Shown: positions 1,807 through 21,982 of the stretch, piece by piece | Layout: every line of letters begins with the position of its first letter | How positions within the stretch are numbered: the stretch's first letter is position 1 | Virus record (IMG/VR): IMGVR_UViG_3300033153_005525 | Span: 1-24,562 of that record | Direction: 5' to 3' (one strand) | Length of the DNA: 24,562 nucleotides | From: a virus | Translations under genes and position numbers: made by a program | Notes under the pieces: generated by a model | Seen by the model: the letters and a program-made list of their open reading frames with translations, nothing else | Databases searched by the model: none | Told to the model about the DNA's origin: nothing

Positions 1807-2059
1807 AGCCTTTAGGTAATTTATTGGTTACATTTTCTTTCCCGTCTATTTTATCTCTTTCTTCTTCAATTCTTTTGAGTATCTCAAACGCATCAAAGAT
1901 AGCTAATTTTTTAGTGGCCGCTGCATTTTTTAATCTATCAGCAGCTAACTCATCATCCTTATCGTATTTTATTATATCCTCTTTAGCCACTTTTATTAAC
2001 TGAGTAACAGCTTTCTCTCCAGCTTTTATTATTTCTTCTTTTATTTTATTTATATCCAT
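1784..2059 (-). CDS. Small charged helical protein upstream of terL; possible small terminase subunit
   Basis: The product is 91 residues, almost entirely predicted helix, with a Lys/Glu-rich N-terminal half, an Ala-rich middle (ELAADRLKNAAATKK) and a basic Arg/Ser tail. No recognised domain is visible. It lies directly before terL and overlaps its possible TTG start, and it overlaps the preceding SET-domain gene by 14 bases, so the three are translationally packed. Small terminase subunits commonly occupy this position and are small and helical, so this is a candidate DNA-recognition subunit. That rests on position and size only; no helix-turn-helix could be confidently drawn. Confidence 0.7.
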   Translation of the reverse strand: MDINKIKEEIIKAGEKAVTQLIKVAKEDIIKYDKDDELAADRLKNAAATKKLAIFDAFEILKRIEEERDKIDGKENVTNKLPKGFAESRSR

Positions 2060-2447
2060 AACTGTGATTTCTATAATTTACAACTATTTCTTCATTTACA
2101 TCTATATCTTGCGTAGCAATAGCCTTCATATTTCTACCATCCTCAACAAATATAGCATTGTTATAGGGAGAATGATTAGTATATCTACCTAACAATGTTC
2201 TATGATCTTCTTTAATAGCATATCCTATCAGTGAATCTTTTAATATTTTTTGATTAGAAAAAATTCCTTTTTTATGAATAGAAGATTTTTTTATACAATA
2301 AAGATTTGTTTTTTCAGGCACAACTTCTCCTACACGCTCATCAAACTCTTTACTATTAATCAACCTATCCACATCTTCTTCTCTTAAAGAATTTTCTTGC
2401 AGTAGTTTAAGATAATCTAAAACAACCTCTAAATTATTCACTCCCAT
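2046..2447 (-). CDS. SET-domain protein, putative lysine methyltransferase
   Basis: The product is 133 residues: a helical N-terminal part (about 1-45) followed by a compact SET-like domain. The visible SET signatures are KGIFSNQKI at about 60-68 (the strand-turn near the start of SET domains), GRYTNHSPYNNA at 87-98, with the Asn-His-Ser knot residues that bind S-adenosylmethionine, and EEIVVNYR at 119-126, with the tyrosine expected in the active site. Known SET enzymes transfer methyl groups to lysine side chains of proteins; the target here is unknown. The domain is shorter than most, and pre-SET and post-SET cysteine clusters are absent. The gene overlaps the oxygenase gene by one base. 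The fold call is good; the activity is inferred. Confidence 0.8.
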   Translation of the reverse strand: MGVNNLEVVLDYLKLLQENSLREEDVDRLINSKEFDERVGEVVPEKTNLYCIKKSSIHKKGIFSNQKILKDSLIGYAIKEDHRTLLGRYTNHSPYNNAIFVEDGRNMKAIATQDIDVNEEIVVNYRNHSYGYK

Positions 2448-3022
2448 TAAACTATTTTATAAAACATTACATAAATTTTTCTTCCTTGTGGCCACGCAAC
2501 ATTCGGGTATTTACTATGAAAATAACTGGAAGGATAAGATATTAATCTATTTTCTTCATATCCTAATACAGTAGATAATTTCCATTTTTCTAATTTCTCA
2601 GAATCTACCTCTAACATTCTATCATACTCCGCATCACTTACATCAACAGGAAGCTCTCTACCATAAACCTCATGCTCCCAAAAAGCAGTTCCGTGTAAAT
2701 CATTTCTTTTGCGTGGAGAGAGATATAATACTAAAGCTCGATCAGGACGTTGTCCTTCAATATTTAAATCTGAATGAATATTCCATTGGGTGTCTAAAGT
2801 GTCTGTAGCTTCTCTAAAAAAACTTAAAATATTTTTAAGCTCCCGTTGCTCCATAACTTCTAATCTGCTTAATATATAGTCATCAAAATCAGAGTTTGAA
2901 GGTATAACATAACACTGCCTATCACCGCCCATTTCAACCTCCGTAAACTTACTCTCATTTAAATAATTTTGAGTTATTTGTAAAAATGTAGAATCTAAAA
3001 AATCATCAATTAAATATATCAT
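2447..3022 (-). CDS. 2-oxoglutarate/Fe(II)-dependent oxygenase-like protein
   Basis: The product is 191 residues. A facial-triad pattern is visible: HSD at residues 83-85 (His83 and Asp85), a distal His169 in SSYFHS, and Arg181 in QGRKIYVMFY, where the 2-oxoglutarate carboxylate is normally held. LHGTAFWEH at about 109-117 matches the segment often seen after the first metal ligands in prolyl-hydroxylase-like phage proteins. Family members hydroxylate protein or small-molecule substrates using Fe(II), oxygen and 2-oxoglutarate; the substrate cannot be told here. The start overlaps the end of the double GroES-like gene by four bases (ATGA), and the stop meets the SET gene, so all three are likely translated together. 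Confidence 0.78.
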   Translation of the reverse strand: MIYLIDDFLDSTFLQITQNYLNESKFTEVEMGGDRQCYVIPSNSDFDDYILSRLEVMEQRELKNILSFFREATDTLDTQWNIHSDLNIEGQRPDRALVLYLSPRKRNDLHGTAFWEHEVYGRELPVDVSDAEYDRMLEVDSEKLEKWKLSTVLGYEENRLISYPSSYFHSKYPNVAWPQGRKIYVMFYKIV

Positions 3023-6100: not shown

Positions 6101-9100
6101 TTAAGATTTTTTAAGTTCATCAATTTCAGCTTTTAATTCTTTAATAGACTCAATAAGTAATGGAACTAATTTGTCATAAGAAACTGTTTTATATTCTACA
6201 CCATTAGCAACTTCTGTGTCTGATATTGGAGCGACATGTACTACTTCTGGCATTATTTTTTCAACCTCTTGTGCGCTTACACCGACCTGTCTTTTATCAT
6301 CATCATAGCCTAACTCTTTAGCTAATTCATTTTCTCTAAAGTAATATCCTCCTAATTGACAAACCTTATCTAAAGCATTAGGAATTTTTCCTTCAAAGTC
6401 TTTAAGTCTTTCATCAGAATAATAAGCATAAATATTATTTGTAGCTCTTATCATTCCTGTAGTTCCTGAAGCATTTGTTCCAACTCCAAAAGAATCAAAT
6501 CGAACATCTGCACCAGTATCAATATCTTGTTCTGTAGAAACAGTAACAGCTCCTGTCGCACCACTCACATCTATACCCGTTCCTGCGACAATAGACGTAA
6601 CCCCGCTATTAGTAATGGTTACCGAACCAGACGTTCCCCCACCACTTATTCCAGTACCAGCGTTTACCGCAGTAATATCTCCCGATGATGTAGTATAGCC
6701 TGAATCATTTGTCCACTGACTTATATTACCACCTTTATTAGTAAATGTTTGGGAATTTGAGGCTGTTGTTGTACCTGTATTGGTGGTATAACCTGAACCA
6801 TTTGTTAATTGATTATTATTAGTAATACTACAATTTAAAGTAACTGTTCCTGAAGTACCTCCTCCGCTCATTCCAGTTCCTGCAGTAACACCCGTTATAT
6901 CTCCAGTATTAGTAGTATAACCACTATCATTAGTCCATTGTGAAATATTACCTCCTTTGTTGGTAAATGTTTGACTATTACTTGCTGTAGTAGTTCCCGT
7001 GTTGGTTGTAAATCCTGAATCATTGCTAAATATACTTAATCCAATTTCATTTGCTGCTTTTCTTCTTTCTGCTCCTGAGTCTAATACAATAAATTCATCT
7101 GTACCTGTCATAGCAGCCGTCATATCTGTAAGTTCAGATAAGTCTAAAGTAATTGTACCTGATGTAGTAAACGATCCATCTAACCCAGTTCCTGTTGCTA
7201 CTGAAGTAACTGTACCAGTATTTGTTGTATATCCAGAACCATTAGTAAGTTGATTGTTGTTTGTTATAGAACAATTCAAAGTAACAGAACCACTTGTTCC
7301 ACCACCGCTCATTCCAGTACCCGCTACAACCGCTGTAATATCTCCTGAAGCAGTAGTATAACCACTATCATTTGTCCACTGTGAAATATTACCGCTTTTA
7401 TTGGTAAATGTCTGAGAATTTGAGGCTGTTGTTGTACCTGTATTGGTTGTATATCCAGATCCATTAGTAAGTTGATTGTTATTTGTAATAGTACAGTTTA
7501 ATGTAACAGCCCCACTTGAGCCTCCACCTGACATGCCTGTACCCGCAGTGACCGCTGTTATATCACCTACCGCAGTAGTATACCCACTATCGTTTGTCCA
7601 TTGAGAAATATTTCCGCCTTTGTTCGTAAAAGTTTGGCTATTACTTGCAGTGGTAGTTCCTGTATTAGTTGTCCATCCTGAATCATTATTCATTCCTGAC
7701 AAATTGATGTTGGCTTTAGTTAATTTTCTCTGAGCAGAAGAAGTGTCTGTTACCACAAAGTAATCACCATCACCATTTGTAGTAGATGTAGATAATTCAG
7801 ATAAATCCACATTTAGTGTTACTGTACCTGATGTTCCTCCACCATCTAATAATGTTCCTGCGGTTACTCCAGTTATATCTCCTACAGCTGTGGTATAACC
7901 ACTGTCATTAGTCCATTGTGAAATATTTCCGCCTTTGTTAGTAAATGTCTGAGAATTAGACGCGGTAGTAGTTCCTGTGTTGGTTGTATAACCCGCTCCA
8001 TTAGTTAATTGGTTATTATTTGTAATAGAACAGTTTAATGTTACAGTTCCACTTGTGCCTCCACCACTCATTCCAGTTCCTGCAGTAACACCAGTTATAT
8101 CACCTACATTTGTTGTATAACCTGCACCATTTGTTAATTGATTATTATTGGTAATAGAACAATTTAATGTTACAGACCCACTTGAGCCTCCACCACTCAT
8201 TCCTGTTCCTGCTACTACAGCAGTAATATCACCTGTAGCTGAAGTCCAACCAGCATCATTATTCATGGTGGACAGGTCTATATCTCCTGGGGCAATTTTA
8301 TATGTAGTACCCGCGGTATTAGCAATAGAGAACCAATCTGCATTACTTGATGTGGTAGTTGTTGTTGAATCTTCCACATCCAAATCTAAAGAACCAGTAG
8401 ATGTAACTGATCCTGATAATCCAGTACCACCATCCACTCTTGTTACACCAGAGGTAGTTACATACCCTGCTCCATTAGTAAGTTGATTGTTGTTTGTAAT
8501 ACTACAATTTAAAGTAACTGTTCCTGAAGTGCCTCCTCCGCTCATACCTGTTCCTGCAGTTACTCCTGTTATGTCTCCAGTATTAGTAGTGTATCCTGAA
8601 TCATTAGTCCATTGTGAGATATTACCTGACTTATTAGTAAATGTTTGAGAATTACTTGCGGTAGTAGTCCCAGTGTTAGTTGTATAACCTGCACCATTAG
8701 TTAGCTGATTGTTATTTGTTATCGTATTAGTTACCGTTATTGTTCCACTGCTTGTTATAGGTGAACCAGATATACTAATTCCAGCTCCTCCCGAAACAGC
8801 TACTGAAGTAACTGTTCCTGAATTAGTAGTCCATCCACTATCATTATTCATTGTAGATAAATCTATATCCCCAGGAGCTATTTTATAAGTTGTTCCTGCA
8901 GTGTTGGCAATAGCAAACCAATCCGCATTACTTGAAGTTGTTGTAGTGGTTGCGTCTTCTACATCCAATACTAATGTTCCTGTTGAAGTTATTGTGCCTC
9001 CGCTTAAACCAGCACCAGTAGCTACCGAAGTTACTGTTCCTGAGGTTGTGGTATATCCTGAATCATTTGTCCATTGTGATATGTTACCACCCTTGTTTGT

Positions 9101-10597
9101 AAAAGTTGTGGAAGAAGAAGCTGTGACATCTGCTGTTAATGTAATTGTTCCTGAAGTAGTTACTGTTCCACCACCACCAAGTCCAGATCCTGCACTTACA
9201 GTAACAGAAGTTACAGTTCCTGAAGTGCTGCTTGTTCCAGCGCCAATTAAAGATCTTACTTCGGCTGCAGTTACACCACTTGCTAAAGTTGGTGTACCAC
9301 CACCCGAAAATATTCCTGGCTCTGCATAAGTTGTATAGCCCGCTCCATTGGTAAGTTGATTATTATTTGTAATAGAACAATTTATAGTAGGTACAGGCCC
9401 TGTAGGACTTGTAATAGTTATACCCGTCCCCGCTGTTAAACCTGTTAGGTCTCCTTGCGGAACAGAAGCCAATAGATTAGCAACTGTAATTTTTTTGTTT
9501 TGTGGAACACCTTCGTCATAAATTAATAATATATCCTCATCTGCTGGTGTGGCTAATGCTGTTAAACCAGCTAAATTTATACCAACATCTGGAACAGGGC
9601 CAGTAGAAGTAGCTACAGTAATACCTAAATAACTATTGTTTGTTGAAGCGGTTACAGCTGTTATATCTCCAGGACTTCCACTTGAAGCCGCAGTAATTCT
9701 ACCTTGAGCATCTACAGTTAGAGCTGTGGAGGTATAGCTTCCAGCTGTTACTGCTGTATCTGCTAAGTCTATTGTGCCAGAACCTGTTATAGTTCCTCCA
9801 TCTAAACCTGTTCCTGCCGTTATACTTGTTACTGTTCCTGAAGTTGAAGAAGTTCCTGCTCCGATTAAAGTTCTTACTTCTGCCGCAGTTACTCCACTGG
9901 CTAATGTAGGTGTTCCTCCGCCAGAGAATATTCCTGGTTCAGCATATATAGTTGAAGAATTAAATGCGTTTGATCCAAATATTTCTGAGGATAATTTTCT
10001 TTTTTGTGATGAGCCACCATCTAATACTACAAACTCATCAGCCGAGGTATCCCAAGCTTGAGTCATGTCCGTTAATTCTGTTAAATCTACTAATATGGCA
10101 TCTGCGCATCTACATCAATCAATGCGCCTGCTCCTACATTTAATGTAACAGCACCAGATGTACCACCTCCTGTTAAACCAGAACCTGCAACTACTGAAGT
10201 TATATCGCCTTGAGGTAAAGTAGATAAATTTGTTAAAGTTCCTGCACCATCTATAAATTGAGAAGAAGTTCCTGCCATTGTTATAGCAATAGTACCAGAG
10301 CTTGTTACTGGTTGACCACCTACTGTAAAAGCATTTCCTGCATGAGTAAATCCTACTGAAGTAACACTTCCACCTCCTGTGCCAGCACCTATATCGGCTA
10401 ATACTTGCGCACCAGTTCTATATTTAATGTCTCCACTTTTTATCGGGATCGGTTGCCATTGCAGGCACAGAAACGCCTGTTATAGCATTGCTACCCATGG
10501 CTAAGCCAGAGGTAAATGTAGCTCCTGCAAGAGTGGATGAAGATGCAGTGGTTATTCCACTGTCTATGTCTAACGCTGATAAGTAACTAATTGCCAT
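6101..10597 (-). CDS. Very large repetitive tail fibre with S74 chaperone tail, broken by two frameshifts
   Basis: Three successive open frames form one gene of about 1,497 residues once two indels are repaired. The first piece starts at ATG 10597 (MAISYLSALDIDSG) and hits a stop just after a TTTTT run at 10437-10441. Removing one base there restores SGDIKYRTG. That frame ends at 10090; removing two bases at GCGC 10104-10107 joins it to the last 1,321 codons in the original frame. The body is built of repeats: ISQWTNDSGYTT seven times, NNNQLTNG about eight times, GTGMSGGG many times. The last 105 residues begin SDERLK, contain VGVSAQE and end in a coiled coil (IKELKAEIDELKK), a full S74 self-cleaving chaperone. 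The fibre presumably binds the host surface. The fibre call is firm; whether the shifts are real or sequence errors is open. Confidence 0.85.
6660..9370 (-). repeat. In-frame coding repeats of the large fibre gene
   Basis: This stretch encodes degenerate units of about 60-70 codons, each combining NNNQLTNGxGYTT, TGTTTASNSQTFTNK, GNISQWTNDSGYTT and GDITxVTAGTGMSGGG. The units vary at synonymous positions, so the repeat is much clearer in protein than in DNA. Several stretches of near-identical DNA remain and could support recombination, unit gain or loss, and assembly error. Confidence 0.85.
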
Positions 10598-16641: not shown

Positions 16642-16866
16642 TTATCCCTTTTTGTTTTGTTTTCTTACTATTGGGTTTCTAATACTTATAGTATCTCCAC
16701 CTTTTGTTGTAATCACAGGCTTCTTTATAAATTTCTTAACTTTCTTGCCAGTGGTTTTAATCTTTTCTATCTTGCAATTATTGATCTGTTTTCTTTGCTC
16801 TTTAGACACTTTACCTTTAAAGTTTTTGCCTAAGACCTGAATCCTACATGTTGTTTTATCAGCCAT
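16642..16866 (-). CDS. Small lysine-rich basic protein
   Basis: The product is 74 residues, heavily Lys/Arg (FKGKVSKEQRKQ, then KIEKIKTTGKKVKKFIKK), with a beta-type tail (DTISIRNPIVRKQ). Its two Cys residues (CRIQVLG and NNCKIE) are not in a paired motif. Composition suggests nucleic-acid contact, as for the other small basic proteins of the late block. It follows the 170-residue putative virion gene by 18 bases. A rightward open frame overlaps it but is only its antisense shadow. Confidence 0.6.
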   Translation of the reverse strand: MADKTTCRIQVLGKNFKGKVSKEQRKQINNCKIEKIKTTGKKVKKFIKKPVITTKGGDTISIRNPIVRKQNKKG

Positions 16867-16884: not shown

Positions 16885-17397
16885 TTACCAAATAGCTACA
16901 CAGTTGTTGTCTGCATTGGCATCAGTGCCAGTTGCATAAACCTGTAATATTTGAAGAGGAAGATAGTCTCCAACTGGAAACTGAGTAAAGGTTACAACAC
17001 TACCTCCAGTGGTTTTTACTTTTACATCTAATGCGGTATCTGTTCCAGAACTGCCTACATATAATAAACACCCATCAGAATCAGAAGACTCTTGGTCAGG
17101 GCCAGCAAGAAAGACAATATAAGCTTCTCCTGAAGCCAAAATATCTGCGCTTAATTCTAAAATTGTTGTGCTATCTATAGCTGTTACTGTCGCTACAGTG
17201 TTATCGGTTGTGTTATATACAATGTCTCCAATAACAACACCTGTAAAATCTGCTCCTACATCTACTAATTTATCAGTAGTTGTAGCGGTGGTTGTTCCGC
17301 TCATTTGTTGAACTCCAGGGTTTGGTATTGGGATTGTGTCACTGGCTATAACTTGTAGTGCTACTCCAGTGTTTACGGTTATTTTTGGGTACGCCAT
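16885..17397 (-). CDS. Putative virion surface or decoration protein
   Basis: The product is 170 residues and beta-rich. It opens MAYPKITVNTGVALQVIASDTIPIPNPG, then carries TTDKLVDVGADFTGVVIGDIVYNTTDNTVATVTAIDS and ends FPVGDYLPLQILQVYATGTDAN...CVAIW. The 'gvkvGDiVyn.....atVtai.....l.ls.di...g..y.if' middle is the type of small barrel seen in phage head-fibre and decoration proteins. The final 'pvgdylPlqilqVyatGTda' segment resembles the ends of small spike proteins. The exact virion position cannot be told. Confidence 0.65.
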   Translation of the reverse strand: MAYPKITVNTGVALQVIASDTIPIPNPGVQQMSGTTTATTTDKLVDVGADFTGVVIGDIVYNTTDNTVATVTAIDSTTILELSADILASGEAYIVFLAGPDQESSDSDGCLLYVGSSGTDTALDVKVKTTGGSVVTFTQFPVGDYLPLQILQVYATGTDANADNNCVAIW

Positions 17398-17427: not shown

Positions 17428-17583
17428 TTACTTTTTATAAGGAAAAACTCTATTAAGGGTATCACGCCTCTCGTTACACCCACAGTCATTTCCAGTTACT
17501 TTGCTTACTTTGTCTACAACTCTTTTTATACCTGTAGCCTTAGTAATTTTTTCTATACTATCGCCTAAGCCTTTAGATTTCAT
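17428..17583 (-). CDS. Small conserved-looking basic protein with DCGC motif
   Basis: The ATG at 17583 gives 51 residues: KGLGDSIEKITKATGIKRVVDKV, then a DCGCNERRDTLNRVFPY end. The combination of a GLGDxIEKxTKATGI helix and a C-x-C followed by an Arg-rich helix and a FPY tail looks like a defined small phage family rather than a random frame. An upstream TTG at 17628 extends the frame by 15 residues, and the same frame stays open to 17698 without any ATG, so the true start is uncertain. The Cys pair might hold a metal. The function is unknown. Confidence 0.65.
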   Translation of the reverse strand: MKSKGLGDSIEKITKATGIKRVVDKVSKVTGNDCGCNERRDTLNRVFPYKK

Positions 17584-17702
17584 TTTATTTACATTTACAC
17601 AATTTGTGTGGACATTTTTCCACTTCAAATAATAATTTAGATATAAGCCAGTTCCATTTACATTGAAACTTGCACCACACTCCTTGAATCCACTTGCCTA
17701 TT

Positions 17703-17909
17703 CTAATAAGTAATTTTCCCATCTTTATCTATTTTTGGTGGAGGAATGTTTTTAATTCTCCTTCCATCATGAGGCACAACTTGACGATAGGTTTTACTAT
17801 CGATATGAATATGTGCTTTTTTAGGAGCAGCTTCCTTTTTTTTAGCTACCGCCTTTTTTTTTACTACCACCTTTTTTTTGGTAGTAGCTTTTTTGGATCT
17901 TCCCCACAT
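17703..17909 (-). CDS. Lysine-rich histone-H1-like small protein
   Basis: The product is 68 residues. The first half is a tandem of basic units (KKATTKKKVVVKKKAVAKKK), followed by EAAPKKA, the composition of histone-H1-like and DNA-condensing tails. The second half (HIHIDSKTYRQVVPHDGRR, then IKNIPPPKIDKDGKITY) is a short beta-type, proline-containing segment that could be the specific contact. It is likely a nucleic-acid-binding protein, possibly packaged with DNA. The call rests on composition. Confidence 0.65.
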   Translation of the reverse strand: MWGRSKKATTKKKVVVKKKAVAKKKEAAPKKAHIHIDSKTYRQVVPHDGRRIKNIPPPKIDKDGKITY

Positions 17910-17929
17910 TATATTAAATTTAAATTAAA

Positions 17930-18079
17930 TTATCTATTTCTTGCCATCTTTCTAAAGGTCTTCGCTAAATTGTAACGCCTTGAACCTTTAGGGCAAGATT
18001 TACTTCCAAATTTTTTACCAGTACAAGGCTTATCTTTCCTCATACCTTTGGTTGCTTTTTGTATCCAATCCTTTGCCAT
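17930..18079 (-). CDS. 49-residue basic microprotein
   Basis: The gene runs from ATG 18079 to TAA 17930. The product begins MAKDWIQKATKGMRKDKP and ends NLAKTFRKMARNR, with two Cys residues (PCTG, SCPKG) that could pair. The MAK start, compact gap of two bases to the next gene and high Lys/Arg content match its neighbours. It is too short for most gene finders but fits exactly between two other small genes, which supports it. Confidence 0.7.
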   Translation of the reverse strand: MAKDWIQKATKGMRKDKPCTGKKFGSKSCPKGSRRYNLAKTFRKMARNR

Positions 18080-18081
18080 AA

Positions 18082-18303
18082 TTATTTTTTAATTAAAGAT
18101 GACAGGTGACTTTTTACTTTATGAACATGTTTGTGTTCATGTCTATAACCCATTCCTTTGTCCGCGCCATAAGCGTGGCCATAGATTTTTTTAGACATTG
18201 CTTTAGATTCATCTCTTCTGTCTTTTAAAGATTGAGAGTGATGGCCGCGGTGTCTTCCACCTAATGACTCATCTAATCGAGCGTTATATCCTTGTTTTGC
18301 CAT
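18082..18303 (-). CDS. 73-residue Arg/His-rich basic protein
   Basis: The product starts MAKQGYNARLDESLGGRHRG, has an SLKDRRDESKAM helix and ends in a His-rich stretch (YRHEHKHVHKVKSH). The N-terminal half looks like a conserved short module; the His cluster could bind metal. It belongs to the run of tiny basic proteins at the front of the late block. A TATATTTG element lies 30 bases upstream of its start. The function is unknown, with nucleic-acid or virion association inferred from charge. Confidence 0.7.
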   Translation of the reverse strand: MAKQGYNARLDESLGGRHRGHHSQSLKDRRDESKAMSKKIYGHAYGADKGMGYRHEHKHVHKVKSHLSSLIKK

Positions 18304-18332
18304 AATACAAAATTTAGTAATTAATAATACTA

Positions 18333-18340
18333 CAAATATA
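18333..18340 (-). promoter_or_regulatory. Possible -7 element (TATATTTG)
   Basis: In the 62-base gap between two small basic genes the minus strand reads TATATTTG, a TAnnTTTG match 30 bases before the downstream ATG. No TTG at the 19-base spacing is present. It is weak support for an internal promoter. Confidence 0.3.
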
Positions 18341-18365
18341 GTAATAATTTATTTTTGATTTTGAG

Positions 18366-18506
18366 CTAATCCCAGGGGTTGTGAGATTTTCTTGCAGCTC
18401 TTCTTTTTTTTCTTCTCTCCTTATTTCCTTTTAATACTGCTTTAACAGAACGTAAAATATTACCTACTTTAGTTCCCCCTTCTTTTTTCTTTTTTTTCTT
18501 AGCCAT
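18366..18506 (-). CDS. 46-residue Lys/Arg-rich microprotein
   Basis: The gene runs from ATG 18506 to TAG 18366. The product opens with MAKKKKKKEGGTKVGNILRS, carries NKERRKKRRAARK and ends SHNPWD. Nearly half of the residues are Lys or Arg. The clean fit between its neighbours (one base from the upstream gene's stop) and the MAK start favour a real gene. It is likely nucleic-acid binding. Confidence 0.65.
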   Translation of the reverse strand: MAKKKKKKEGGTKVGNILRSVKAVLKGNKERRKKRRAARKSHNPWD

Positions 18507-18507
18507 G

Positions 18508-18714
18508 TTATGATCTTTGATTTGATGATTCTACCCAATTTTTCATTTGAGTATTTCCTCCTAACAAATATGCAGAGTTAGAACTACGACCTGAAGGCCC
18601 TTTTTTAGGGTCACCTGGTTTCCATTTTCCTTTAGGTTTTTTAGGTTTAGTACGTCCCAATCTTATATTTCTTTCTGCAATCAGCTGTTTAGCTGTTTTA
18701 TGTCCATTTCCCAT
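18508..18714 (-). CDS. 68-residue basic Gly/Pro/Lys protein
   Basis: The product reads MGNGHKTAKQLIAERNIRLG, then TKPKKPKGKWKPGDPKKGPS, then a SSNSAYLLGGNTQMKNWVE tail. It is a helix followed by an unstructured Lys-Pro linker and a polar end. There is no recognised domain. It is packed within 1-2 bases of the neighbouring microgenes, so it is one cistron of the basic cluster. Confidence 0.65.
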   Translation of the reverse strand: MGNGHKTAKQLIAERNIRLGRTKPKKPKGKWKPGDPKKGPSGRSSNSAYLLGGNTQMKNWVESSNQRS

Positions 18715-18716
18715 TA

Positions 18717-18803
18717 TTATTTCTTTTTATAAACTGCTCTTAATGCTTTTTTGGAGGCCTTTGAACCTTTCTTGAGTAATCTTTTTGGTTTTACTTTTTT
18801 CAT
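18717..18803 (-). CDS. 28-residue basic microprotein
   Basis: The gene runs from ATG 18803 to TAA 18717. The product begins MKKVKPKRLLKKGSKASKKA and ends RAVYKKK; it is half Lys/Arg and would form one amphipathic helix. It fills exactly the gap between two accepted genes with spacings of 2 and 4 bases. The short length keeps confidence moderate. Confidence 0.5.
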   Translation of the reverse strand: MKKVKPKRLLKKGSKASKKALRAVYKKK

Positions 18804-18807
18804 AATT

Positions 18808-19194
18808 TTATTTATTTATACGTTTGGTTATTCTTTTAATTCTTTTGGTTAAATGCTTTGACCTGGTAGCAACTCTTTTTGCAGAACCAGCTAAGCGTTC
18901 CCTTTTACCCTTGAGCTTCGCTACTTTAGTGGCTTTTTTACCATGTAATTTTTGAGATTGTTTTTTCTTTTGCTTTTCAGACAAGCCATGCACATTAACT
19001 TTTCCTCTTTTTCTCTGAGCAGCTCTTGCTTTTCTTACGGCTGAGGTTCTCATAGCTCCCGCAGTCTTTTCATTTAATTTACCGCTTTTTAATCCTTTGT
19101 TTGCTGCTTGCATTAGCTTTTTAGCTTTGCCTTCTTTTCTTTCAGCGGCAGCTATTTTTCTGTTATATTTCTTTACTCTTAATCCTTTGGGCAT
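18808..19194 (-). CDS. 128-residue extremely basic helical protein
   Basis: The product is the largest of the basic cluster. It is made of Lys/Arg/Ala helices (GKAKKLMQAANKGLKSGK; SAVRKARAAQRKRGKVN) and ends in RITKRINK, with hardly any acidic residues. This is the composition of DNA- or RNA-condensing proteins. No cysteine, no membrane segment and no enzymatic motif are present. It may be an internal virion or nucleoid-type protein; this is inferred from charge only. Confidence 0.7.
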   Translation of the reverse strand: MPKGLRVKKYNRKIAAAERKEGKAKKLMQAANKGLKSGKLNEKTAGAMRTSAVRKARAAQRKRGKVNVHGLSEKQKKKQSQKLHGKKATKVAKLKGKRERLAGSAKRVATRSKHLTKRIKRITKRINK

Positions 19195-19220
19195 AATATG
19201 ATTGTTTTTAAATTGTTATC

Positions 19221-19361
19221 CTATCTTCCTTGTCCTCGATACATTGTGCCTTTATAATATTTACCATTTTTTTGTTTAGTATGTCTATTCTTAGAATGGA
19301 CACCTGGTCTCTTTGTGGAGGGAGAAGAATTGTATATACTTAACTGTATTTTCCTCGCCAT
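19221..19361 (-). CDS. 46-residue basic microprotein with YRGQGR end
   Basis: The gene runs from ATG 19361 to TAG 19221. The product opens MARKIQLSIYNSSPSTKRPG, continues VHSKNRHTKQK and ends KGTMYRGQGR. The KRPGVHSKNRHTK core and YRGQGR tail look like a defined small phage family and not a chance frame. It is the first gene of the leftward late block and lies 23 bases after a -7 element on the minus strand. Confidence 0.72.
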   Translation of the reverse strand: MARKIQLSIYNSSPSTKRPGVHSKNRHTKQKNGKYYKGTMYRGQGR

Positions 19362-19376
19362 TATTTTAATTGTTTG

Positions 19377-19392
19377 TATCTTTACAAAGATA
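19377..19392. promoter_or_regulatory. Palindromic divergent promoter region (TATCTTTACAAAGATA)
   Basis: Two 7-base arms (TATCTTT / AAAGATA) flank a two-base centre in the 53-base gap between the leftward late block and the rightward regulator gene. On the minus strand 19385-19392 reads TATCTTTG, an exact Bacteroidetes -7 element for the late block. On the plus strand 19377-19384 reads TATCTTTA, a near match for the regulator. The symmetry could also be a binding site. No TTG is at the expected spacing on either strand. Confidence 0.5.
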
Positions 19393-19414: not shown

Positions 19415-19867
19415 ATGAGCATCCCCGTGCGCAATAATTCTTCGCGTAAACAACCCTCTAATGATTATTTAAAATACTGGAAAGTAGTAAAGTATTGGGT
19501 TAAAAGGAAATATGCTATATCTTCTGGAGATTTAGATCTAATGTTGTTCTTATATAGCGAACATTTATTTAATAAAACAAAATTTGAAGAGTTCAATGAA
19601 CTCATGTCGTGGGATTCTAATAGGTTCTATAGATTGATAAAAGAAGGGTGGATACATAAATGGAGAGAAAAAAAGGGTAAACAAGCTGCCCTCTATGAAT
19701 TAACCTATGCAGGGAAGCGCATGATAGATAATGTATATAAAAAATTAAATGGTGAAAAATTTTCAGAATCTTACGTTAACAATCCTATTTTTAAACATGA
19801 TGTTAAGTTTAGAGATAAGGTCTATAGAAACTATATGAAAAAAATCAATCAAGAAAACCGATCATAG
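19415..19867 (+). CDS. Putative winged-helix DNA-binding regulator
   Basis: The product is 150 residues. A helix-rich N-terminal half (YLKYWKVVKYWVKRKY, DLDLMLFLYSEHLF, NELMSWDSNRFYRLIKEGWI) is followed by a basic wing (HKWREKKGKQAALYELTYAGKRMIDNVYKKL). The closing 'aalYeLT.aGkrmi' strand-helix is characteristic of MarR/PadR-type winged helices. It is the only rightward gene between two leftward operons and shares a palindromic promoter region with the late block, so it is a natural candidate for switching that block. Its end overlaps the groES end by six bases, tail to tail. Confidence 0.7.
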   Translation: MSIPVRNNSSRKQPSNDYLKYWKVVKYWVKRKYAISSGDLDLMLFLYSEHLFNKTKFEEFNELMSWDSNRFYRLIKEGWIHKWREKKGKQAALYELTYAGKRMIDNVYKKLNGEKFSESYVNNPIFKHDVKFRDKVYRNYMKKINQENRS

Positions 19868-20119
19868 TACAACTACTACGTCTCTTTCTTGAATAATCGT
19901 GTAGGTGTCATCATTAATAATCATCGAATGTCCAGCTGCTTTATCAAAATAAATTAAATCTTTAGATTTAATAGTATCAACATTAGTTCCTGGTTCTACT
20001 ACTTCAGCCTTGTGATAACGTAAAGAAGAAACATCTTCGGAGGAAAGTAATATTCCTGAATCTGTTTTATACTCTTCGTTTATTTTTTTTATAATAATAT
20101 ACTTTCCTACTGGCCTCAT
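19862..20119 (-). CDS. groES: GroES co-chaperonin
   Basis: The product is 85 residues, somewhat shorter than bacterial GroES (about 95). The strand order is typical: YIIIKKI, a mobile-loop region YKTDSGILLSSED with ILL in place of the GroEL-contacting hydrophobic tripeptide, HKAEVVEPG, DLIYFDKAAGHSM, INDDTYTIIQERDVVVVL. It would cap the phage GroEL ring and close the folding chamber. It is the last gene of a leftward operon with groEL and a small unknown gene, whose stop overlaps its start as ATGA. Confidence 0.88.
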   Translation of the reverse strand: MRPVGKYIIIKKINEEYKTDSGILLSSEDVSSLRYHKAEVVEPGTNVDTIKSKDLIYFDKAAGHSMIINDDTYTIIQERDVVVVL

Positions 20120-20362: not shown

Positions 20363-21982
20363 TTAATCTTTAATTCGTGCGTGAGTTATAATTGCATTGG
20401 TACTTAAAATTGTAGTAGCGACACTGCTCGCATTTATTAATGCGTTCTTAGTTACTTTAAGAGGATCTATTACCCCCAACTTATATAAGTCACCAAACTT
20501 CTCATTTTTTACATCGTATCCGAAATTAGCCTTTTTTTCTTTTTCAATTAAGGAGATTATTTTCTTTGGATCTATTCCTGCATTAACAAGTATTTGTTCT
20601 AAAGGTTTAGTAATAGCATTTTTTACTATATTAAAAGCGCTCATATAATCCAAATCAATCTCTTTATTAACTAATTTTTTAGAAGCTGAATATAATGCAA
20701 GTCCTGCACCAGGGACTATGCCTGCTTCTAAAGCACTGCGCACCGCGCATACCGAGTCATCGACTCGGTCAAATTTTTCTTTTTGCTCTACATCACTATT
20801 ACCGCCTACGTAAATACAGCCTATAGCACCTGCTAAGCTCGCTATTCTTTCATTTATAAATTTTTTACTTACTGCATCAGTAGTAGATTTCTGTTGTTCT
20901 TTGAGTTCTTTTATTCTTTGTTTAAGTTCTTCACTTGGTTCTTGATTTTTAATCATCACCGAAGAGTGTTGTCCTATAATTACTTTATCAGCATGTCCTA
21001 AGTCTGTTTCATTTAGTAGGGTTAAATCATCACCTGTTTTTTCAGAAAAATATTTAGCACCTAAGGTAAGGGCAATATCTTGTAGTAGCTCATGTTTCTT
21101 ATAGCCGAATGAAGGGGTAGGTATATTACAGAGCTTTAAATTATTTCTCACCACATTAGCGGCTAATGTATTTACTACATTGGGAGCGCAATCGGCAATA
21201 AGTAATAGTGTCTCATTTTTTTGAATGATAGGTTTAAGTATCGTTTCTATTTGAAGGATGTTACTTATATCTTGATCACACACTAAAACTTTCGCATTCT
21301 CTAAAATACACTCGTCTTTCTTTTGGTTATTAATAAACAAATTAGATGAGTATCCTCTATCTACTTTTATTCCGTTTGTTACTTCCGCATATGTCTCATG
21401 ATTTTGGGAACGCTCTACGGTAACAATTCCATCACGTCCTACTTTTTTATACGCATCATAGATCAACTGTCCTATCTCAGGATCATTGTTCGCTGAAATT
21501 TTTGCTACATCTAACAAACTACTTTGCGTTATTTTTTTTGCTGTCTTATTTAAGTCTTTAACTACCTCTTTTATTATTTGATTTACATAACGTACTACTT
21601 GGGCAGTATTATTTGAGGGTAGTATATGGGTTTCACCTGCCTTTACAAAGGCTTCCGCTAAAACAATAGCCGTAGTTGTTCCATCTCCCGCTTCATTAGA
21701 AGTACGGTTGGCGGCATCTTTCATCATCTTAATAGCTAAGTTCTCAACGGGGTCATCTAAATAAACTGCACGCGCCACAGTCACTCCATCTTTGGTAACG
21801 GTTATTCCCGCAAGATGATCAGTCGACTCTATGATAACGGTTTTACCGCGTGGGCCTAAAGTACTCTTTACAGTCTTAGCAATAGATTCTATTCCTTGCA
21901 TTAATTTTCTTCTACCTTTTTTATCGAAATGGAGGTCTTTAGGAATGTAGCCTTGTTTTTGAGGCGAATTGGTTATAGGCAT
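20363..21982 (-). CDS. groEL: Phage GroEL chaperonin (Hsp60)
   Basis: The product is 539 residues, full length. The ATP site is intact: TLGPRGKTVI near 41-50, VTKDGVTVA near 62-70, GDGTTT at 99-104, and VDDSVCAVRSALEAGIVPGAG with the conserved catalytic Asp and glycine-rich segment near the end. The apical domain keeps GYSSNLFI and the FGYKKHELLQDIA helix. Differences from bacterial GroEL are an N-terminus about 13 residues longer and loss of the Gly-Gly-Met tail; the protein ends TTILSTNAIITHARIKD. It is expected to form ATP-driven rings that fold phage proteins, paired with the GroES encoded downstream. The promoter is probably the TATCTTTG about 100 bases upstream. Confidence 0.95.
   Translation of the reverse strand: MPITNSPQKQGYIPKDLHFDKKGRRKLMQGIESIAKTVKSTLGPRGKTVIIESTDHLAGITVTKDGVTVARAVYLDDPVENLAIKMMKDAANRTSNEAGDGTTTAIVLAEAFVKAGETHILPSNNTAQVVRYVNQIIKEVVKDLNKTAKKITQSSLLDVAKISANNDPEIGQLIYDAYKKVGRDGIVTVERSQNHETYAEVTNGIKVDRGYSSNLFINNQKKDECILENAKVLVCDQDISNILQIETILKPIIQKNETLLLIADCAPNVVNTLAANVVRNNLKLCNIPTPSFGYKKHELLQDIALTLGAKYFSEKTGDDLTLLNETDLGHADKVIIGQHSSVMIKNQEPSEELKQRIKELKEQQKSTTDAVSKKFINERIASLAGAIGCIYVGGNSDVEQKEKFDRVDDSVCAVRSALEAGIVPGAGLALYSASKKLVNKEIDLDYMSAFNIVKNAITKPLEQILVNAGIDPKKIISLIEKEKKANFGYDVKNEKFGDLYKLGVIDPLKVTKNALINASSVATTILSTNAIITHARIKD

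Follow-up and report, generated by a model that had tools for sequence, protein, structure and literature searches.

A fixed locus with changing tiny basic genes in a group of marine phages: candidates for head-internal proteins

What might a phage gain from an uninterrupted run of tiny genes encoding strongly basic proteins? The DNA that tailed phages package is regarded as essentially free of protein, and a run of this kind, lying between the chaperonin genes groEL-groES and a gene for an acidic protein, raises the question of whether its products act within the infected cell, assist in building the particle or may be cargo of the particle itself. We consider this question for a 24.6-kb viral record (IMG/VR IMGVR_UViG_3300033153_005525; the full stretch of 24,562 nucleotides is hereafter the window), which is probably a genome fragment, and for its sister sequences, all of which are metagenomic contigs. 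The original prediction had recognized nine leftward genes at positions 17428-19361, closely spaced and rich in lysine and arginine, and had proposed that they encode a set of nucleic-acid-condensing proteins made at the start of the late block.

All nine reading frames are present where they had been placed, with products of 51, 68, 49, 73, 46, 68, 28, 128 and 46 residues, including the four that fall below 50 residues (Table 1). A tenth frame of 45 residues, which had been overlooked, occupies the gap between the 51-residue gene and the gene for the histone H1-like protein. The claimed small gaps hold for 7 of the 9 junctions (1-26 nt), the two exceptions being a 20-nt overlap and a 62-nt gap that coincides with an internal promoter motif. 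The richness in basic residues is likewise borne out, with isoelectric points of 9.9-12.0 (pI and net charge throughout are values computed from sequence) and a Lys+Arg content of 23-50%. Ten tiled ATG-initiated frames of at least 27 residues cover 94.9% of 17428-19361, whereas 2000 sequences simulated with the dinucleotide frequencies of the same stretch averaged 16% and never exceeded 53%. Codon-usage log-odds favour the annotated frame in nine genes (+6 to +45 nats); the 45-residue gene has a neutral score (-0.8) and is accepted because it is conserved in sister loci. Short-frame conservation, on which the prediction could have foundered, is evident in every family with enough relatives, all being under purifying selection (dN/dS 0.03-0.36), and the families that could be tested in this way are thus real genes. 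The tiling, together with dN/dS where relatives suffice, rules out chance frames in A+T-rich DNA. Genes of 28-50 residues, readily missed by length cut-offs, can be both real and selected.

Table 1. Genes of the array, its boundaries and promoter motifs, with positions in the window.
Feature	Position	Strand	Observations
GroEL	20363..21982	-	phrog_5725, 9e-134
GroES, upstream island boundary	19862..20119	-	phrog_3188, 1.6e-15
HTH-like regulator, divergent, island boundary	19415..19867	+	PHROG transcriptional regulator, 9e-4; conserved in 67 loci
Bacteroidota-type promoter motif TANNTTTG preceding the first array gene	19385..19392	-	beside the HTH gene in 48/66 loci
46-aa basic protein, family kkRPGVHAKxKxSxxKxSKxYxKxYRGQGr	19221..19361	-	11 relatives in fetched loci
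128-aa protein, pI 12.0, net charge ~+42, orphan	18808..19194	-	no relatives found
28-aa protein, 50% Lys+Arg, orphan	18717..18803	-	no relatives found
68-aa Gly/Lys-rich protein, orphan	18508..18714	-	no relatives found
46-aa Lys/Arg-rich protein, orphan	18366..18506	-	no relatives found
Bacteroidota-type promoter motif TANNTTTG in the 62-nt gap preceding the 73-aa gene	18333..18340	-	upstream of 40/64 relatives
73-aa core protein, RxDES repeats	18082..18303	-	398 relatives; dN/dS 0.20; AlphaFold pLDDT 58
49-aa basic protein, (W/F)IQKA...GSKSCPKGS	17930..18079	-	14 sister loci; dN/dS 0.03-0.05
68-aa protein, H1-like Lys/Ala/Val tail and C-terminal RRIxxxPPPK part	17703..17909	-	two distant relatives; repeat
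45-aa Trp/Cys-rich amphipathic basic protein	17585..17722	-	54/80 loci; dN/dS ~0.35
51-aa core protein, three predicted helices, invariant CGC	17428..17583	-	76/80 loci; dN/dS 0.29; pLDDT 88
Acidic 170-aa protein, pI 4.1, downstream boundary	16885..17397	-	phrog_12296 tail fiber, 2.3e-6; 79 loci

The closest annotated genome, MW202828, is circular, measures 60.8 kb and is described as Podoviridae. It shares with five long sister contigs the order groEL-groES, divergent HTH gene, island of tiny genes, acidic 170-residue-type gene, M15 endolysin, terminase, portal and structural genes, with some genes unlabelled in some of the contigs. Judging from this order, it is reasonable to regard the array as the start of a late block that continues leftward to the endolysin and terminase; in the long sister contigs of this clade, the island is distant from the portal and capsid genes. 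The Bacteroidota-type promoter motif is far more frequent at the sister loci (48/66 beside the HTH gene and 40/64 upstream of the 73-residue gene) than its background of 11% per 120 nt. Because it precedes both the first array gene and the 73-residue gene, the array looks like two units: the 46-residue 'RGQG' protein and the four orphans form the upstream unit, and five families that have relatives form the downstream one. A search of Rfam returned no matches. Relatives of the 51-residue protein in bacterial assemblies occur mostly in Bacteroidota metagenome-assembled genomes, with a few in other bins, which together with the promoter motifs suggests that the host of this marine phage is probably a member of the Bacteroidota. 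Past the acidic 170-residue gene, the window contains a further basic gene of 74 residues (16642-16866, minus strand; pI 10.7), with no relatives among the fetched loci.

Sister loci were picked from the viral contigs by similarity to the 73-residue protein, 80 of its relatives' loci being fetched, so that this gene is universal among them by construction while the frequencies of the other genes are unaffected. In ~80 sister phages, the island occupies the same place, between groEL-groES with the divergent HTH gene and the acidic 170-residue gene. Its content is another matter. The 61 anchored loci contain, by approximate count (families by BLAST single linkage, genes by simple ORF chaining), 488 genes, 3-16 each (median 7), in ~115 families or singletons; 83% of the genes have a pI above 9.5 and the median summed net charge is +78. 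The 73-, 51- and 45-residue genes are mostly retained and the remainder is variable. Downstream of groES and the HTH gene, most fetched loci keep the order 73-(49)-45-51-170, and thus the conserved microgene order that had been anticipated extends to 73-(49)-45-51, whereas the rest turns over. Median pairwise dN/dS is 0.20, 0.29, 0.35 and 0.03 for the 73-, 51-, 45- and 49-residue families, respectively, and lies at 0.08-0.22 in six recurrent variable families present only in sister islands. As read from these loci, what selection keeps is a cassette that stays basic while its content changes, and not a fixed nine-gene 'phage nucleoid', given that the gene order is conserved only in part. Nor is basicity a general feature of tiny genes in these genomes: in the five long sister contigs, 38/55 tiny genes are basic and K/R-rich in the island versus 36/236 elsewhere (odds ratio 12.4, P = 1e-14). 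In two of the five contigs, some of the tiny genes elsewhere form a second basic cluster adjoining the M15 endolysin gene, in the contigs of loci L003 (L120: ~51.7-53.3 kb of G001) and L034 (L126: ~30.5-32.0 kb of G010).

Are the array proteins condensing proteins of one kind? As proposed, they are real, selected where this is testable, placed at the start of the leftward block and nearly all basic, and DNA condensation is possible, but the set is not uniform, as the 51-residue, 73-residue, H1-like and 45-residue proteins differ in predicted character. The 51-residue protein is predicted with good confidence to be a folded three-helix domain; in its family the CGC is invariant and the RRDxLNRxFPY end conserved, and the predicted fold had no match among PDB structures. 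The 45-residue protein reads from its sequence as amphipathic and Trp/Cys-rich. Neither of these looks like a condenser, and both probably have other, more specific roles. The 73-residue protein is predicted, with low confidence, to be mostly disordered; the resemblance of its N-terminal part to gp47 of phage HTVC027P (hhalign 91%; hmmsearch 1.6e-4 on a small set) is suggestive only. A likeness of the 49-residue protein to HTVC027P gp44 is not claimed at 34% probability, and a supposed relative of the 45-residue protein in Nonlabens phage P12024S was dropped once the sequence had been read out.

The gene that had been singled out as the clearest histone H1-like case does encode a Lys/Ala/Val-rich tail of ~30 residues, with 2.6 copies of an 18-nt unit at 17834-17879, and this tail is like that of histone H1, whereas the separate C-terminal half is not H1-like, the array protein lacks the globular H1 domain and no histone match was found. 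Its RRIxxxPP motif is common to two sister phages, and searches of the fetched loci with phmmer and a profile identified two distant relatives from the corresponding part of the island, L034 (5382) and L073 (5514). Seeding of the viral contigs with 8-residue words found no relatives for the 128-residue, H1-like and 68-residue (18508) proteins. As the H1-like relatives were found by phmmer and profile only, seeding misses such proteins, and 'orphan' is a provisional label for the 128-, 28-, 68- (18508) and 46-residue (18366) proteins, which had no relatives by phmmer in the fetched loci. The remaining members, namely the 73-, 51-, 45- and 49-residue, H1-like and 46-residue (19221) proteins, have relatives. 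No array protein matched a Pfam model, including those for histones, HU, IHF, DUF6321 (PF19846) and PF19058, and the H1-like and 128-residue proteins had no match in PDB. On these searches, membership of the histone, HU or IHF families is rejected.

Several sister-island families extend well beyond this phage group. One sister island (L025) encodes a DUF6321 domain (PF19846; 6.8e-22, 78 bits versus a cut-off of 28.5) that we found in 527 phage records, mostly of cyanophages and pelagiphages, and that no paper in a search of the open literature names. The cyanophage and pelagiphage proteins with this domain are basic like that of L025 and often adjoin terminase or head genes; the domain is absent from the array of the window, and in cyanomyoviruses it makes up the C terminus of a large protein. 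Another sister (L044) encodes a small basic protein resembling Tlr6F/DUF5754, with a score of 21.4 bits that falls short of the PF19058 cut-off of 27.4; the window has no match to this model. This module occurs in 119 records (tblastn), including the cultured Flavobacterium Elemovirus, roseophages, pelagiphages and Aeromonas phages. Cultured Flavobacterium phage elemoE_10-3D (L090, 5099-7527) has GroES-GroEL, the Tlr6F-like gene and a gene homologous to that for the 170-residue protein as direct neighbours, and so offers a laboratory system for study of the cassette. Tlr6F is reported to be conserved, with unknown function, across polinton-like viruses, giant viruses and some phages (PMC4642659), and an algal virus has annotated DUF5754 and DUF5872 proteins (PMC12085832). 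The YPSAYAN and DUF5872-like families of sister islands are found in pelagiphages too. Some sister-island modules are common to pelagiphages, cyanophages and roseophages, and some have relatives in giant viruses.

In these unrelated phages, frequent neighbours of the shared modules are portal, scaffold, capsid or terminase genes. In HTVC027P and 023Pt_psg01, such modules make up a series of tiny genes, most of them basic, that lies between portal-region genes and GroES/capsid. The series of Pelagibacter phage HTVC027P (L084, 6532-8843) comprises nine consecutive small genes preceding GroES and capsid, mostly basic and all annotated as hypothetical, among which are DUF6321, DUF5872-like and YPSAYAN modules. 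In P-SCSP2, modules are placed between scaffold and capsid. The Tlr6F-like module has head genes around it in KBS-S-2A and Aeromonas phage 4L372D but no obvious head-gene setting in HTVC008M and Celeribacter phage P12053L. In cyanophage S-CREM2, the DUF6321 domain is the C-terminal domain of gp137 (OR473000, 108049-109521; match at 109306-109518), and ORF137, with the same coordinates, was detected by mass spectrometry of CsCl-purified virions with 4 peptides and 4.1% coverage (PMC10665884, Table 3). This detection concerns gp137 as a whole and is indirect evidence, silent on position in the virion and on DNA binding by the basic domain.

A precedent for such a locus is offered by phage T4, the internal proteins of which are basic, present at ~360 copies each and DNA-binding at low salt, with other basic proteins taking their place in relatives (PMC9026906). 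Like T4 IPI, IPII and IPIII, the island proteins are small, basic, several together, poorly conserved and swapped for other basic ones, and the 61 loci show the T4-type pattern of one locus with differing small basic genes between close relatives. The island differs from the T4 case in having many more and smaller genes per phage and in that a head location is a proposal here; no sequence relation to the T4 proteins was seen. We tentatively favour, as the best available explanation while granting it somewhat less than an even chance, that the array represents one variant of an exchangeable late cassette, whose basic proteins would bind nucleic acid and travel in or with the head in the manner of the T4 internal proteins. 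Supporting this reading are the ten real frames, purifying selection, the fixed locus with its changing, 83% basic content, the enrichment of basic tiny genes in the island, the modules adjoining head genes in unrelated phages, the presence of gp137 in S-CREM2 virions and the T4 precedent. In the mechanism that we infer, the island proteins would be produced early within the late block, bind by virtue of their positive charge to the core of the head and to the DNA packaged there, be retained inside the head as internal proteins, help to neutralize and arrange the charge of the DNA, and pass together with it into the next cell, where they could take part in an arms race against host defences that act on incoming DNA. 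The gain and loss of families would then follow, as we propose, from selection for basic charge with loose demands on sequence, combined with that arms race. With ~100 interchangeable families of basic microproteins in a single genomic slot, the question of basic proteins inside the head becomes open to test in a marine phage group that is abundant and has been little studied.

Several observations weigh against the head-internal reading. The S-CREM2 peptides may lie outside the basic domain; by eye, the array N-termini have M-x-K starts in common but no evident head-targeting leader; the island is distant from portal and capsid genes; and two core members are not condenser-like. In addition, published work sees no evidence of a large contribution of basic proteins to the neutralization of phage DNA (PMC3281028). 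The same source reports that basic, virus-encoded proteins, A278L and A282L, are recovered with the virion DNA of chlorovirus PBCV-1; these are basic likewise, but belong to a eukaryotic virus with another packaging mode, and no sequence match to them was found. A bolder version of the head-internal reading, in which an interchangeable kit of tiny basic proteins would act as protein 'chromatin' in the head of a tailed phage, neutralizing the packaged DNA and entering the host with it, and would be drawn from a gene pool of unrelated phages with relatives in polinton-like and giant viruses, strikes us as improbable, because PMC3281028 sees no large neutralizing role for basic proteins.

The proteins might instead act within the cell only and be absent from virions, binding phage or host nucleic acid so as to displace the host nucleoid, condense DNA before packaging, bind RNA or ribosomes, or contribute to host takeover. 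Their basic and partly disordered character suits such roles, a variable cassette is typical of host-interaction genes and the proteins of the window's clade are known from genes alone, which makes this the most serious competitor, if an unlikely one, given that the array opens a late-type block rather than an early region, that head genes are recurrent neighbours of related modules in unrelated phages and that one such module sits on a virion-detected protein. Adjacency to groEL-groES, and the position of modules in other phages between portal and GroES/capsid or next to scaffold, would also accord with assembly accessories (prohead core, scaffold partners, or chaperonin-linked folding or packaging helpers) that are largely gone before the virion is complete, an explanation we hold to be quite doubtful, as such factors are usually conserved, yet most island families turn over, and in the window's clade a long distance separates the island from the portal and capsid genes. 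That the variable genes outside the conserved core are mostly short-lived frames of little specific function, Lys-rich through A+T-rich DNA, fits the lack of relatives of 4/10 array genes in the searched loci and the many singletons among island families but has the poorest prospects, in view of the dN/dS of the recurrent variable families, the much less basic tiny genes elsewhere in the same genomes and the conservation of several variable modules across unrelated phages.

Other minus-strand genes of the window were noticed as well. A SET-domain protein (2046-2447, minus strand; PF00856, 7e-7, above the cut-off) is possibly a lysine methyltransferase encoded in the same block as the Lys-rich array; SET is found in only 2/25 sister contigs, which rules it out as a conserved partner of the array. 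Adjoining the SET gene and the terminase is a gene matching DUF6445 (2447-3022, minus strand; 1.4e-5, above the cut-off). A fibre-like protein of 1321 residues (6101-10066, minus strand) is highly repetitive and has a C-terminal Peptidase_S74 chaperone domain.
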